A DNA stretch of 32,154 nucleotides from Clostridia bacterium (lineage in GTDB: Bacteria > Bacillota > Clostridia > Oscillospirales > CAG-272): NCBI GenBank assembly GCA_017550315.1, contig JAFZPN010000220.1, forward strand, positions 1 to 32,154. The letters are read 5' to 3'. The position numbers and the translations under genes are program-made. Positions 8,200 to 14,237 of this stretch are shown in pieces (within the stretch, counting starts at the first letter, position 1; every line of letters starts with the position of its first letter). A model generated the notes under the pieces. It ran no database searches, had not been told where the DNA came from, and saw nothing but the letters and a program-made list of their open reading frames with translations.

Positions 8200-8229
8200 A
8201 CAGCAAGTTTGAAATACAGGAACAACGCT

Positions 8230-11200
8230 ATGTCAGACAAATCCACCCGCACCCTGTCGGAAATCTTTGCGAAAATCGCGCCGACCCTCACCGGGGTGAG
8301 CCGCGATCTTTTCCTCGAGGCGGAGGACGTCCGCCTGAAGGTCAGCCGGGAAGCGCGGATCGCCGAGGTGAGCTGCGCCCTGCCGCGCCTGTACCGCAAA
8401 CAGGATATCTATGCGCTGGAAGCGAAGATCAAGGATGCCTACGACCTCGCGCAGGTCCGCATCCTCACGCGCTACGATCCGGCGCTTTTCACGATGGATT
8501 ATATGAGCGAGATCCTCGCGGAGGCGGGGCGCGTCGGCGTCGTCTGCAACGGCTTCTTCGACCGCTACGAGCTCGCCGCCGAAGGGGAGCGGATCACCGT
8601 ATCGATCCCGTTTTCCCGCGGAGGGATCGGACTGCTCGACCTTGCCCAGACGGCTCGCGTGATCGAAGGGATCCTCTACAGCGAATTCGGGCTGCATTAT
8701 GAGATCTCGATCGAGCAGTCGAAGAACGCCGACGAGGAGCACGCGGAATTCCTCTCCCGCCAGCTCGAACGCCTCAACGCGACCTCCGCCGAGATCCTCA
8801 CCCGGTATGAACAGGCGGAGGCAGCTCCTCCGCCGGAAGCCGAATCCGCGCCCGCCGAAGAAGAGAAGGCCAAGCTGCCCCGCGTCGATTCGCTTTTCGA
8901 CGGCAGCCCGACAGCGGAGGACCTCGGGGACGGCAGAATCCGCAGCGGACGGATCACGTTCGACTGCGCCGCGCCGGAGGTCGTCTTCGGTGAGCTTTTT
9001 CCGATCGAGAACGTCAAGCCCCTGCGGTCGATCAAGCATCCGGAGCGCGGCGCCGTCATCCTCTGCGAGGTCTTCGCGATCGAGCAGAAGGAAACGCGGC
9101 GCGGCGACAAGGTCATGTTCACGATCGCCGTCACCGACCGCGAGGCGTCGATCTACATCAAGATCACCGTTCCCGCGGACGCCGCAAACGATACGGAAAG
9201 CCTCTTCGCGAAGGGGAAGCAGTACGCCGTGCGCGGGACGATCAGGAACGACAAGTTCGACGACGAGCTTTATATGCAGTTCACCGACATCCTGAAGGTG
9301 AAGGAAGCCGCCCGCATGGACCGCGCGCAGGAGAAACGGGTCGAGTTGCACCTGCACACGGTCATGTCCGCGATGGACGCGACGAACAAGGCTGACGACA
9401 TCGTGAATACGGCATATAAATGGGGGCACAAGGCGGTCGCGATCACGGACCACGGCAACCTTCAGAGCTTTCCCGTCGCCATGCTCACCGCGGACAAGCT
9501 CGAAGAAAAGATCAAGGTCCTCTACGGCGTCGAGGCATACTACGTCGACGACACCGCCCGCGCGGCTTACCGGGGCGAGGAAGTCACCTTTGACGACGAA
9601 TTCGCCGTCTTCGACCTTGAAACGACGGGCCTCTCCGCCGCGTCGAACAAGATCACCGAGATCGGCGCGGTCATTCTCAAGAACGGCGAGATCCTCGACC
9701 GCTTCAACACCTTCGTCAACCCCGGCGTCCACATCCCGGAGAACATCACCGAGCTGACCGGGATCATGGACGAGATGGTCGCGGACGCGCCGCCGGTCGG
9801 GGAAGCGCTGAAGGATTTCTATGCCTTCATCGGGGACCGCATGCTCGTCGCGCACAATGCCTCCTTCGACACGGGCTTCATCCGCACGGCGTCGGAGCAG
9901 AACGGCATGGATTTTCAAAATCCCTACCTTGACACCGTCGCCATGTCGCGCTACATGAACCCGGAGCTCAAAAACCACCGCCTCGATACGCTCGCGAAGC
10001 ACTACCGCCTCGGCGATTTCAACCATCACCGGGCCTGTGACGACGCCGAGATGCTCGCCCGGATCTTCGCTTCGATGGTCGAGCGCCTGAAGGAGGACGG
10101 CATCGGGGACATCGCCCGGCTCAACTACGTCATGGCCGAGAAGGCGGATCCCTTAAAGCTGAAATCCTATCACCAGATCATCCTCGTGAAGAACCAGGCC
10201 GGGATGAAGAACCTCTACCAGCTCGTCTCGGATTCCTATCTCAAATACTTCTACCGCCACCCGCGCATCCCCCGCACCCGCCTCGAAGAGCTGCGCGAGG
10301 GATTGATCCTCGGGTCCGCGTGCTCCGAGGGCGAGCTCTTCCGCGCGATCCAGGAGGGCAAGCCCGAGGACGACCTCATCGAGATCGCGAAGTTCTACGA
10401 CTACCTCGAGATCCAGCCGATCGCGAACAACGCCTACATGATCCTCGAAGGGACCGTCCCGGACGAGGAGGCGCTGCGCAGTTTCAACCGCCGGATCGTC
10501 GAGATCGGGAAAAAAGCGGGACGTCCCGTCTGCGCCACCTGCGACGCGCATTACAAGAACCCGGAGGACGAGATCTACCGCCGGATCATCCTGACGGGTC
10601 TCGGCTACAAGGACGCGGACCGCGAGACCAAGCTCTACTTCCGCACGACCGAGGAGATGCTCGAAGAGTTCTCCTATCTCGGCCCGGAGACGGCTTACGA
10701 GGTCGTCGTTACCAATCCGAACAGAATCGCCGACAGCATCGAACAGGTCCGCCCGATCCCGAAAGGGAACTACCCGCCCCACATCGACGGCGCGGAGGAG
10801 GAGCTGACGACGAAATGCTGGTCCCTTGCGAAGGAGATGTACGGCGATCCGCTGCCCGAGGTCGTATCGTCGAGACTCCAGCGCGAGCTCGATTCCATCA
10901 TCTCGAACGGCTTTGCCATCATGTACATCATCGCCCGCAAACTTGTGGAAAACAGCGAGGAGAAGGGCTATCAGGTCGGCTCCCGCGGCTCCGTCGGCTC
11001 GTCCTTCGCGGCGACCATGGCGGGGATCACCCGGGTCAATCCGCTCCCGCCGCATTACCGCTGCCCGAAGTGCCGCTGGTCCGAGTTTTATACGAACGGC
11101 GAGTACGGCTCCGGATTCGATCTGCCGCCGAAGGTCTGTCCCGTTTGCGGCACGCCGTGCGATCAGGACGGCCATGATATCCCCTTCGAGACCTTCCTCG

Positions 11201-12654
11201 GCTTCAAGGGTGACAAGACCCCGGACATCGACCTCAACTTCTCCGGCGACGTGCAGGGCGCGGCCCATAAATTCACCGAAGTCCTCTTCGGCGTCGGGCA
11301 CGCATTCAAGGCGGGGACCATCGGCACGGTCGCGGACAAGACGGCCTACGGCTTCGCGGCGAAATTCCTCGAAAAGAAGGGCATCTCGGTCAATCGCGCG
11401 GAGATGGACCGCCTCATCCACGGCTGCAACGGCACCAAGCGCACGACCGGCCAGCACCCAGGCGGCGTCATCGTCGTCCCGGCGGAATACGAGGTCTACG
11501 ACTTCTGCCCGATCCAGCACCCTGCCGACGACCCGAACTCGAGCATCATCACGACGCATTTTGAATATACCTACCTGCACGAGACGATCCTGAAGCTCGA
11601 TATCCTCGGCCACGATATTCCGACGAAGTACAAACGGCTCGAAGAGTATTCGGGCGTGCTCGTCACGGACGTTCCGCTCTCCGACCGGCTTCTGTATGAG
11701 GGTCTGACCTCCACCGAGCCCATCGGCGTCTCCCCGGATCAGATCGACGCGCAGACCTCGACCCTCGGCCTTCCCGAGCTCGGCACGAACCTCTCGCGCA
11801 AGGTGCTCATGAAGGCGCAGCCGAAGTCCTTCGCCGATCTTTTGCAGATCCAGGGCCTGACCCACGGGACGGGCGTCTGGCAGGGAAACGCGGACGAACT
11901 GATCGAATCGGGGATCTGCACGATCTCCGAGGTCATCGGGTGCCGCGACGACATCATGATGACGCTCATCCACAAGTACGGGGTCGAAAAGTCCCTCGCG
12001 TTCAAGATCATGGAATTCGTGCGCAAGAACAAGAAGGGCCTGATCATCCCGCAGGACATGCAGGACGCGATGCACGCGCAGAACGTCCCGCAGTGGTACA
12101 TCGATTCCCTCCAGAAGATCCGCTACATGTTCCCGAAGGCCCACGCCGCGGCCTATGCGATTGACGCCGTGCGCCTGATGTGGTACAAGATCCACTATCC
12201 GGTGGAATTCTACGCGGCCTACTTCACAGCGGCGCCCGACGGCTTTGACGGGGAGATCGTCATGGGCGGGAAACGGCGCGTCCGGGAGGTCTACAATGAC
12301 CTGAAAAAACGGAACGACCTCTCCGCGACCGAAGCGGACGTGCGGGATGCGCTGCAGCTCGTGATCGAGTATTATGAGCGCGGCTACGATTTCCTCCCGG
12401 TCGATATCAAAAAGTCCCACGCGACGAAATTCCTTCCGGAGCACGGCAAGATCCGCCTGCCCTTCACGAGTCTGCCCGGACTCGGCGTGAGCGTGGCGGA
12501 GAGCATCATGAACGCCATGCAGTCCGGGGCGGTTTGGTCCGTCGACGATCTGCGCGTGAACGCCCGCGTCTCGAAGAGCATCCTCGAACTGCTCGAAAAG
12601 AACGGCGCGCTGGCGGGCATGTCCCAGACGAATCAGCTTTCCCTCTTCGGCTGA
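8230..12654 (+). CDS. polC: DNA polymerase III alpha subunit, PolC type
   Basis: Replicative polymerase of low-GC Gram-positives with built-in proofreading. In the 1474 residues I see an N-terminal domain, an OB fold (about 225-365), a PHP domain starting VELHLHT (about 370) that is split by a DnaQ-like exonuclease (DLETTG about 460, HNASFD, then HHRACDD), the PHP remainder, a zinc site with CPKC and CPVC (about 944-975), the catalytic palm with TPDIDLNFSGD (about 996), and HPGGVIVVP (about 1076). The C-terminus ends QLSLFG, a consensus beta-clamp-binding peptide. ATG 8230 has AGGA at 8218-8221; a TTG at 8209 lacks one. It is last in the operon and closed by a terminator overlapping the spoIVA leader. 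Confidence 0.98.
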   Translation: MSDKSTRTLSEIFAKIAPTLTGVSRDLFLEAEDVRLKVSREARIAEVSCALPRLYRKQDIYALEAKIKDAYDLAQVRILTRYDPALFTMDYMSEILAEAGRVGVVCNGFFDRYELAAEGERITVSIPFSRGGIGLLDLAQTARVIEGILYSEFGLHYEISIEQSKNADEEHAEFLSRQLERLNATSAEILTRYEQAEAAPPPEAESAPAEEEKAKLPRVDSLFDGSPTAEDLGDGRIRSGRITFDCAAPEVVFGELFPIENVKPLRSIKHPERGAVILCEVFAIEQKETRRGDKVMFTIAVTDREASIYIKITVPADAANDTESLFAKGKQYAVRGTIRNDKFDDELYMQFTDILKVKEAARMDRAQEKRVELHLHTVMSAMDATNKADDIVNTAYKWGHKAVAITDHGNLQSFPVAMLTADKLEEKIKVLYGVEAYYVDDTARAAYRGEEVTFDDEFAVFDLETTGLSAASNKITEIGAVILKNGEILDRFNTFVNPGVHIPENITELTGIMDEMVADAPPVGEALKDFYAFIGDRMLVAHNASFDTGFIRTASEQNGMDFQNPYLDTVAMSRYMNPELKNHRLDTLAKHYRLGDFNHHRACDDAEMLARIFASMVERLKEDGIGDIARLNYVMAEKADPLKLKSYHQIILVKNQAGMKNLYQLVSDSYLKYFYRHPRIPRTRLEELREGLILGSACSEGELFRAIQEGKPEDDLIEIAKFYDYLEIQPIANNAYMILEGTVPDEEALRSFNRRIVEIGKKAGRPVCATCDAHYKNPEDEIYRRIILTGLGYKDADRETKLYFRTTEEMLEEFSYLGPETAYEVVVTNPNRIADSIEQVRPIPKGNYPPHIDGAEEELTTKCWSLAKEMYGDPLPEVVSSRLQRELDSIISNGFAIMYIIARKLVENSEEKGYQVGSRGSVGSSFAATMAGITRVNPLPPHYRCPKCRWSEFYTNGEYGSGFDLPPKVCPVCGTPCDQDGHDIPFETFLGFKGDKTPDIDLNFSGDVQGAAHKFTEVLFGVGHAFKAGTIGTVADKTAYGFAAKFLEKKGISVNRAEMDRLIHGCNGTKRTTGQHPGGVIVVPAEYEVYDFCPIQHPADDPNSSIITTHFEYTYLHETILKLDILGHDIPTKYKRLEEYSGVLVTDVPLSDRLLYEGLTSTEPIGVSPDQIDAQTSTLGLPELGTNLSRKVLMKAQPKSFADLLQIQGLTHGTGVWQGNADELIESGICTISEVIGCRDDIMMTLIHKYGVEKSLAFKIMEFVRKNKKGLIIPQDMQDAMHAQNVPQWYIDSLQKIRYMFPKAHAAAYAIDAVRLMWYKIHYPVEFYAAYFTAAPDGFDGEIVMGGKRRVREVYNDLKKRNDLSATEADVRDALQLVIEYYERGYDFLPVDIKKSHATKFLPEHGKIRLPFTSLPGLGVSVAESIMNAMQSGAVWSVDDLRVNARVSKSILELLEKNGALAGMSQTNQLSLFG

Positions 12655-12663
12655 GGGGACGGC

Positions 12664-12692
12664 GCATAAACGATCCTCCGCGTGCATAAGCT
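12664..12692 (+). promoter_or_regulatory. Candidate sigma-E promoter for spoIVA
   Basis: GCATAAA (12664-12670), a 14-base spacer and CATAAGCT (12685-12692) resemble the mother-cell sigma-E elements (KMATATT and CATACAnT), each with about two mismatches. Initiation would fall near 12699, inside the loop of the polC terminator. spoIVA is a sigma-E gene in Bacillus; the promoter call here is inference. Confidence 0.42.
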
Positions 12693-12722
12693 GTACCGCA
12701 GCATTACACGCGGAGGTTTTTT
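12675..12722 (+). terminator. polC terminator whose 3' arm holds the spoIVA Shine-Dalgarno
   Basis: A perfect 10-bp stem (CCTCCGCGTG at 12675-12684 with CACGCGGAGG at 12707-12716) is followed by six T residues (12717-12722). A nested 4-bp stem GCTG/CAGC (12690-12693 with 12699-12702) sits in the loop. GGAGG at 12712-12716 is also the only ribosome-binding site for the spoIVA TTG start, 9 bases on. Confidence 0.88.
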
Positions 12723-12725
12723 CCT

Positions 12726-14237
12726 TTGACTGATTCATCTATTTATCGCGATATCGCAGAACGAACCCACGGCGACGTCTACATCGGCGTCGTCGGACCC
12801 GTCCGCACGGGAAAAAGCACCTTCATCAAGCGATTCATGGAGTCCGTCGTCCTGCCGAACATCCCCGATGAGGGCGACCGGGCAAGAGCGCGCGACGAGC
12901 TCCCGCAGTCCGCCGGGGGCAGGACCGTCATGACGACCGAGCCGAAGTTCATCCCGGACGAGGGCGTGCAGGTCGACATCGACGGCGTCGGACTGCGCGT
13001 CAAGATGGTCGACTGCGTCGGCTACATGATCCCGGAGGCGATGGGCGGGGAAGAGGACGGGGAAGTACGCATGGTGAATACGCCTTGGCATCCCGCGCCG
13101 GTCCCCTTCGAGGAGGCCGCCGAGGAGGGGACCCACAAGGTCATCGCCGAGCATGCGACCGTCGGGATGCTCGTCACGACGGACGGCACGATCGGCGATC
13201 TGCCCCGGGAGAATTACGTCGGCGCGGAGGAGCGGATCGCGGCGGAGCTGTCCGCGCTCGGGAAGCCCTACGCCGTCATCCTCAACTCCGCCCGCCCCGA
13301 GATGCCGGAATCGGTGCGCCTCGCCGAACACCTCGAAGAGAAGTACGGCGCGCCGGTCGCCCTGGTGAGCTGCCTCGATCTCGACGCGGAGGACATCTGG
13401 CACATCCTCGGGATGCTGCTCGGAGAATTCCCGGCAAAGGAAGCGGACATCGTCTTCCCCGCCTGGACCGGGATCCTGCCGCCCGATCACCGGCTGAGCA
13501 TCGGTTTCCGGGAGGCGGTGACGGCGGCGTCGAAGAAGATGAAGCGGCTCGCCGACATACGGGGCGCGTTTGCCGAGGTCCTCGGAGAGGGGATCGCGAA
13601 GACCGTGGCGGCCGGGGGTTCGGATCCCGCCGACGCGAAGGTCGAGGTCATCGCGACGGACGCCGGCCGGGGATGCGCGATGCTTTCCGTGACCCTGCCG
13701 GACAGTCTCTACTACACGACGATCTCCGAGCTGACCGGGATCCCCATGAAGGACGAGGAGGAACTGCTCGGCGCGCTGGGCAGCCTGTCCGAGACGAAAC
13801 GGGAATACGACCGCTACCGGGACGCCATCGCCGCGGTGAACGAACGCGGATACGGGATCGTCATGCCGGAGGCCGGGGACCTCATCCTCGAGGAGCCGCA
13901 GATCGTGAAGCAGGCGGGAAGCTACGGGGTGCGGCTCCGGGCATCCGCGCCGTCGATCCACATGATCCGCGCGCAGATCGGGGCGGAGATCAACCCGATC
14001 GTCGGGACGGAGGAGCAGTCCGAGGAGATGGCAGGCTACCTCATGGAGGAGTTCGAGAGCGATCCCGCGAGACTCTGGCAGTCGAACATGTTCGGCCGGA
14101 GCCTCTACGAGCTGGTCAACGACGGGCTCCACGCCAAGCTCAGCCACATGCCCGAAGACGCCCGGCAGAAATTCGGCGAAACGCTCTCGAAGATCATCAA
14201 CGAAGGCAGTCAGGGGCTGATCTGCATCATCCTGTAA
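12726..14237 (+). CDS. spoIVA: Stage IV sporulation protein A
   Basis: ATPase that polymerises on the forespore surface to form the basement layer of the spore coat. The 503 residues match the Bacillus protein (492) end to end. Blocks include DIAERTHGDVYIGVVG, the Walker A GPVRTGKST (24-32), DELPQSAGGRTVMTTEPKF, VDCVGYMIP, TTDGTIGD, a middle domain, and the C-terminal APSIHMIRA, FGRSLYELV and INEGSQGLICIIL. The start is TTG 12726: it gives the expected N-terminus and has GGAGG 9 bases upstream. It is monocistronic as far as can be seen. Presence of the gene indicates an endospore-forming lineage, though not that this strain sporulates. Confidence 0.97.
   Translation: MTDSSIYRDIAERTHGDVYIGVVGPVRTGKSTFIKRFMESVVLPNIPDEGDRARARDELPQSAGGRTVMTTEPKFIPDEGVQVDIDGVGLRVKMVDCVGYMIPEAMGGEEDGEVRMVNTPWHPAPVPFEEAAEEGTHKVIAEHATVGMLVTTDGTIGDLPRENYVGAEERIAAELSALGKPYAVILNSARPEMPESVRLAEHLEEKYGAPVALVSCLDLDAEDIWHILGMLLGEFPAKEADIVFPAWTGILPPDHRLSIGFREAVTAASKKMKRLADIRGAFAEVLGEGIAKTVAAGGSDPADAKVEVIATDAGRGCAMLSVTLPDSLYYTTISELTGIPMKDEEELLGALGSLSETKREYDRYRDAIAAVNERGYGIVMPEAGDLILEEPQIVKQAGSYGVRLRASAPSIHMIRAQIGAEINPIVGTEEQSEEMAGYLMEEFESDPARLWQSNMFGRSLYELVNDGLHAKLSHMPEDARQKFGETLSKIINEGSQGLICIIL

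Follow-up and report, generated by a model that had tools for sequence, protein, structure and literature searches.

The window, i.e., the whole 32,154-nt stretch of DNA analyzed here, encodes PolC and, immediately downstream on the same strand, the sporulation protein SpoIVA. Both assignments are well above the curated cut-offs of the respective families (1638 bits versus 873 for NF001688 in the case of PolC and 602.8 bits versus 459.9 for TIGR02836 in the case of SpoIVA). Farther 5' of polC, the same strand encodes Tsf, UMP kinase (with a match slightly below its cut-off), Dxr, and IspG (genes tsf, pyrH, dxr, and ispG). As read directly from the sequence, the TGA stop codon of polC (positions 12652 to 12654) and the TTG codon of spoIVA are separated by 71 bases, which contain most of the features listed in Table 1.

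Table 1. Features of the polC-spoIVA junction and the copies of two further genes in the same genome
Feature	Position	Strand	Comment
polC	8209..12654	+	NF001688 and TIGR01405, above cut-off; co-directional, 5' of spoIVA
-35 element GCATAAA	12664..12670	+	Part of predicted sigma-E promoter; read directly; similar-form promoters in family leaders
Hairpin 5' arm CCTCCGCGTG	12675..12684	+	Led by the anti-SD CCTCC; within the promoter spacer; co-varies
-10 element CATAAGCT	12685..12692	+	14 bases after GCATAAA
Predicted sigma-E transcription start	12699 (about +/- 1-2 bases)	+	Placed from the -10 position; 3' of the 5' arm
Hairpin 3' arm CACGCGGAGG	12707..12716	+	Ends in the five-base Shine-Dalgarno (SD) sequence of spoIVA
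T6 tract	12717..12722	+	Completes the intrinsic-terminator shape; part of the SD-to-start spacer
spoIVA	12726..14237	+	TTG start, 503 aa; TIGR02836 and three SpoIVA Pfam domains
D-Ala-D-Ala carboxypeptidase gene, own copy	L250:7756-8913	-	Stretch not chosen for any match
TIGR04086 membrane-protein gene, own copy	L254:12810-13232		GCATACA-14-CATAGAAT, stem CCTCCCG/CGGGAGG, T-tract, TTG start

The arms CCTCCGCGTG and CACGCGGAGG are perfectly complementary and form a 10-bp stem around a 22-nt loop, which contains a smaller hairpin. The 3' arm ends in GGAGG, the only evident SD of spoIVA, and the TTG codon (12726-12728) lies nine bases past it. The stem, the SD at its end, and the distance to TTG had been described in an earlier, sequence-only reading of the same DNA and are confirmed by direct inspection. 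The G+C-rich stem with T6 directly after it has the form of an intrinsic terminator. The hairpin is absent from the list produced by a stock terminator scan, in which loops are limited to ≤8 nt; the loop is large by terminator standards. Rfam searches of positions 12301 to 13200 yield no matches up to an E value of 1. The segment from 12664 to 12728 folds with a predicted energy of -25.7 kcal/mol, compared to -12.35 +/- 2.7 for its shuffled versions, none of which (0/200) is as good. By z score, the SD-pairing stem of spoIVA ranks second among the 402 testable SD-bearing genes of its own genome, in a sample of about 1.0 Mb (29% of the genome) whose stretches were partly chosen.

SpoIVA is present in 21 of the 25 genomes of the genus and in 121 of the 146 sampled genomes of the family. 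A recognizable start codon is found in 133 family leaders, of which 119 are usable, with an SD score of ≥5 and sufficient upstream sequence; five spoIVA matches (G065, G168, G179, G096, and G095) were left out of the leader set, and removal of one near-duplicate gives a set of 118. An SD-pairing stem at a shuffle p of ≤0.01 is seen in 36 of the 119 leaders (in 40 of the 118 under a slightly different test window), including 16 of the 21 leaders within the genus and 20 of the 98 outside it, the latter spread over 14 other genera. The remaining 83 leaders are above 0.01, and 62 of these, referred to below as stem-less, are above 0.1. Beyond the fetched family set, the stem is found in 8 of the 52 tested loci, two of which encode SpoIVA proteins that are just 49 to 50% identical. 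Close relatives that keep the SD and lose the stem, which the sequence-only reading had named as evidence against its model, are found in part: five of the 21 genus leaders (L018, L005, L011, L014, and L016) miss the 0.01 threshold, yet L018, with a p of 0.012, still has a long stem. The other four are without a clear stem. The upstream gene of L005 is opposed and a terminator-like repeat lies shortly upstream in L016, whereas neither feature is found at L011 and L014. As a separate observation, TTG or GTG start codons occur in 18 of the 36 stem-bearing leaders and 6 of the 62 stem-less ones, without correction for relatedness.

The sequences of the two arms vary widely among these leaders with their pairing retained, and G-T pairs are present. 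At -16 kcal/mol or better, 31 of the 118 leaders pair with their own partner, whereas 6.2 are expected with swapped partners. Since the arms were displaced in some rows of a MAFFT alignment, pairs were counted by script; beside the anti-SD core, the flanks form 393 pairs, compared to 279.9 +/- 12.8 (maximum, 324) in 5000 permutations of 100 leaders. Kinship can inflate such tests, so one leader was drawn per genus. In 20 draws from 53 genera, z ranges from -5.0 to -7.8 (median, -6.6), and in every draw, none of the 1000 permutations reaches the observed sum. Compensatory change between the arms, the comparison that the sequence-only reading had proposed, is seen among relatives, also at one leader per genus. 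It bears on two other explanations of the inverted repeat. C-rich spacers near the sigma-E -10 element might pair with GGAGG by composition, and unrelated spacer/SD pairs do often pair moderately (32 of the 118 leaders at -12 kcal/mol with swapped partners, compared to 61 with their own). However, the strong excess of own over swapped partners, which persists with one leader per genus, makes pairing by chance very unlikely. Alternatively, the repeat might work at the DNA level, being the operator of SpoIIID or of some dimeric regulator, with RNA folding being incidental; SpoIIID indeed binds DNA upstream of spoIVA in Bacillus subtilis (PMC517825). An operator would retain its sequence, however, whereas the arms diverge with pairing kept, include G-T pairs, and are followed by a T-tract after the 3' arm, so that this explanation is hardly credible.

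In the window, the -35 and -10 elements (GCATAAA-14-CATAAGCT) stand at the right spacing for sigma-E. A sigma-E-like form of the ATA...CATA kind, scored with the generally known consensus letters of this sigma factor, is found in 103 of the 119 family leaders; in 20 shuffled sets, the mean is 7.7 and the maximum is 13. This conservation backs the promoter over the 5' arm that had previously been proposed from the window. Among the stem-bearing leaders, the promoter is scored in 31 of 36 (all except L007, L008, L013, L120, and L126), in each case with a spacing of 16, a value that the score favored, along with 17, by half a point. In these 31 leaders, the 5' arm extends at the median from -23 to -8 relative to a start predicted from motif position only, and it lies entirely upstream of that start in 29 of them, as had been suggested for the spoIVA leader of the window. 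In B. subtilis, spoIVA is controlled by sigma-E (PMC517825), and sigma-E dependence of the gene in the window is probable.

The stem-bearing and stem-less leaders differ in what follows and what precedes the stem, with all of the following counts uncorrected for relatedness: a T-tract after the SD is present in 33 of the 36 stem-bearing leaders (all but L010, L153, and L162) and in 7 of the 62 stem-less ones; the ratio of co-directional to opposed upstream genes, where confidently called, is 31:0 versus 28:13 (Fisher p, 3e-4), or 15:0 versus 26:13 outside the genus, and 33:3 versus 39:18 with uncertain calls included (p, 0.011); and a separate terminator at co-directional loci is found in 0 of 33 stem-bearing and 16 of 39 stem-less cases (p, 9e-6). 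The scan for separate terminators ended 44 bases before the SD and for this reason missed the terminator-like repeat of the stem-less L016. Gene orientation was called by amino-acid score in the 115 of 119 leaders with ≥250 bases upstream. This method replaced calls by open-frame length, which showed no association (23:13 versus 33:24; p, 0.67) and mis-called polC.

Among the stem-bearing relatives of the genus, polC adjoins spoIVA in some and is 450 to 950 bases away in others, indicating that the element tracks spoIVA and any co-directional gene that precedes it. The hairpin originally described as the polC terminator is thus terminator-like but not specific to polC, and on the simplest reading, it stands in for the terminator of whichever co-directional gene comes before spoIVA. 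Judged from the T-tract, the co-directional neighbor, and the fact that no second terminator was found, termination of read-through is a better-supported role than hiding of the SD. Termination might even be the only role, the terminator of the upstream unit overlapping the promoter and SD of spoIVA to save space and the hiding of the SD being an unselected by-product. That T-tract, missing second terminator, and co-directional neighbors all track the stem fits this possibility, whereas the three stem-bearing spoIVA leaders without a T-tract speak against it, as do the leaders of two other genes described below; on balance, it is unlikely.

The predicted accessibility of the SD differs between long leaders, which contain both arms, and short leaders, which begin at the predicted start. 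Among the 84 leaders with a scored promoter and sufficient flank (31 stem-bearing and 53 stem-less), opening the SD is predicted to require a median of 14.6 kcal/mol in long and 2.5 kcal/mol in short leaders when the stem is present and 5.2 versus 1.5 kcal/mol when it is absent; the difference between long and short is ≥3 kcal/mol in 31/31 and 25/53 leaders, respectively. In all 31 stem-bearing leaders, the SD is predicted to be more accessible in the short form, with a median unpaired probability of 0.454 versus 0.000. For the window itself, the predicted opening costs are 13.1 and 6.0 kcal/mol (8.6 and 6.1 as MFE cost in one context), and the unpaired probability is 0.003 in the long leader and 0.006 in the short one. 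In the short leader, GGAGG is predicted to form pairs with CCUUUG across the start codon (-6.9 kcal/mol), so that exposure of the SD in this transcript would be partial. In sigG, a ribosome-binding-site hairpin of -6.2 kcal/mol cuts expression 2- to 4-fold (PMC5942855). The sequence-only reading had the SD hidden in read-through RNA and exposed in the short leader. The first part holds by prediction, given the stem energy of -25.7 kcal/mol and the opening cost, behind the better-supported termination; for the second, the predictions are mixed, with a more accessible SD at the median of the 31 leaders and a weakly paired one in the window. In cells, hiding of the SD would be an effect added to termination, the present data do not isolate selection for it, and a translational switch at spoIVA may operate as modeled.

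Similar stems are found before two other genes of the genus. In leaders of the D-Ala-D-Ala carboxypeptidase gene (L352-L366), the stem reaches p of ≤0.01 in 10 of 15 cases, and own partners again pair better than swapped ones (z, -6.1; 0/5000 among 14 non-duplicate leaders, genus relatedness uncorrected). The SD of this gene varies (GGGAGG, GGAGTG, GAGGTG, and GGGGTG) and the spacer arm varies with it, giving the spacer/SD pairs ATCACTCCC/GGGAGTGAT, ACTCC/GGAGT, CACCCC/GGGGTG, and ACACCTC/GAGGTGT. The TIGR04086 membrane-protein gene, which came to notice via a pattern search, has the stem at the same threshold in 8 of 18 leaders (L313-L330), with a swap z of -4.4 (0/5000 among 17 non-duplicate leaders, genus relatedness uncorrected); in L326 and L327, a strong stem covers the SD and the T-tract is missing. 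An SD that changes together with its partner, like strong SD stems that lack the T-tract, speaks against SD hiding as a by-product of termination.

Evidence from other sporulation genes is mixed or negative. SigG-like genes have the stem in 4 of the 10 leaders tested (15 tried), with a mixed signal (swap z, -2.3) and no protein above the TIGR02850 cut-off. By eye, a terminator-like hairpin (AACGCC... / ...GGGGCGTTTTT) appears across the promoter CAATACTG in L446-L448 and L450. Its 3' arm GGGGCGTTTTT seems to be located 5' of the SD, not within it, and such a promoter-nested hairpin favors termination as the sole role. The stem is found in none of 19 yabP leaders (swap z, -1.3), in 1 of 16 tested SpoIIP leaders (6 of the 22 loci being without a usable start), and in none of the 9 SpoIIIAA-like leaders tested of 13 tried, all of which are under the family cut-off. 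In 0.31 Mb sampled from a second genome, 3 of the 95 tested genes reach p of ≤0.01, spoIVA having the best z of the three; none of its two sigma-E-like genes has the stem, and the promoter of its spoIVA escaped the sigma-E pattern of the scan.

In the scanned part of the window's own genome, the stem reaches p of ≤0.01 in 5 of the 7 sigma-E-like genes and in 12 of the 395 others, counts that are biased by the choice of stretches. Many stretches had been picked for pattern-search matches; three of the five genes are such matches, as is a fourth, spoIVA of the window, and the remaining one is located on a chosen stretch, so that this count was rejected as proof of regulon-wide use. The unchosen stretches (228 genes tested, window excluded) contain one sigma-E-like gene, which is without the stem, and the pattern search itself gives 16 matches versus 19 for the control. 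From these sequence surveys, the device appears not to be regulon-wide and seems absent as a general feature of sporulation genes.

The same scan returned several individual loci. A 46-aa DUF3789 gene (L253:11157-11297) has a sigma-E-like promoter spanned by a CCTCCGGC/GCCGGAGG stem, whose 3' arm contains the SD. The gene at L255:720-1820, whose product presumably resembles a cation-efflux protein, has an 8-bp SD-pairing stem and a sigma-A-like promoter (TTGACT-17-TACAAT), the spacer of which contains the 5' arm. A THF riboswitch (RF01831, 87.5 bits) at L273:1054-1150, on the minus strand, precedes a membrane-protein gene (444-974); its recovery by the SD-stem scan serves as a useful positive control.

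Taken together, the spoIVA element would be a sporulation promoter enclosed by an intrinsic terminator. Polymerase arriving from polC would copy both arms, and the hairpin, formed before the T-tract, would stop most of the read-through; in the RNA that escapes, GGAGG would be locked in the stem and spoIVA poorly translated. Transcription from a sigma-E start at about 12699 would give RNA with the 3' arm and without the 5' arm, which would neither terminate nor hold the SD in the stem. This model, in which the hairpin ends read-through transcription and masks the SD in whatever escapes, with sporulation transcripts lacking the 5' arm, has a probability of roughly two in three.

Several known systems share parts of this arrangement. 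Ordinary intrinsic (Rho-independent) terminators likewise have a G+C-rich stem and a T-tract between co-directional units, but the spoIVA stem, with its long loop, encloses the -10 element of the next gene and ends in its SD, so that spoIVA's own transcripts, from the predicted start, would be unable to form it. Translational riboswitches also occlude the SD in a leader stem; in contrast, spoIVA has no Rfam match, and the choice would be made by the transcript start, not by a ligand. In phage T4, upstream transcripts of gene e are known to hide the ribosome site that promoter-proximal ones leave free (PMC3014915), and in the leaders of e, soc, 49, and I-TevI, as in spoIVA, this site is held in a helix. 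These leaders serve the lytic timing of a phage, and the pages of that source that cover them describe no T-tract, whereas spoIVA is a bacterial developmental gene located after housekeeping genes. B. subtilis sigG (spoIIIG), like spoIVA, functions in sporulation, follows a co-directional unit, and has a large leader hairpin. The same logic as in T4 gene e, with the ribosome site hidden in RNA from upstream and free in RNA from the nearby promoter, has been proposed for it (PMC5942855, which cites Masuda 1988 and Sun 1991). The sigG gene differs from spoIVA, as does its sigma factor, and the sections of that article dealing with the hairpin mention no terminator T-tract. Unlike sigG, spoIVA has the 5' arm in the promoter spacer, family-wide co-variation, and at least two other genes that share the design. 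Among the matches listed in a search of the open-access literature (titles and beginnings of abstracts), none describes a fused terminator/promoter/SD element. As far as that literature shows, the combination of terminator, promoter, and SD in one element that co-varies across a family, occurs at several genes, and depends on the neighborhood is new.

In this family, promoter-nested terminators with a built-in SD might be a device used repeatedly by selected sporulation genes to distinguish RNA made from their own promoter from read-through. With the 5' arm in the spacer, initiation at the right place would erase both terminator and lock, and the device would be gained and lost with the upstream neighborhood. 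This broader view is tentative, at somewhat below even odds. One 65-base stretch that combines a terminator, a promoter, and a translational lock could silence a developmental gene behind housekeeping genes at no cost in extra DNA. Because the presence of the stem follows the neighborhood, the family provides a comparative test of how bacteria handle read-through, and an anti-SD in the promoter spacer is a simple rule for searches of other genomes.
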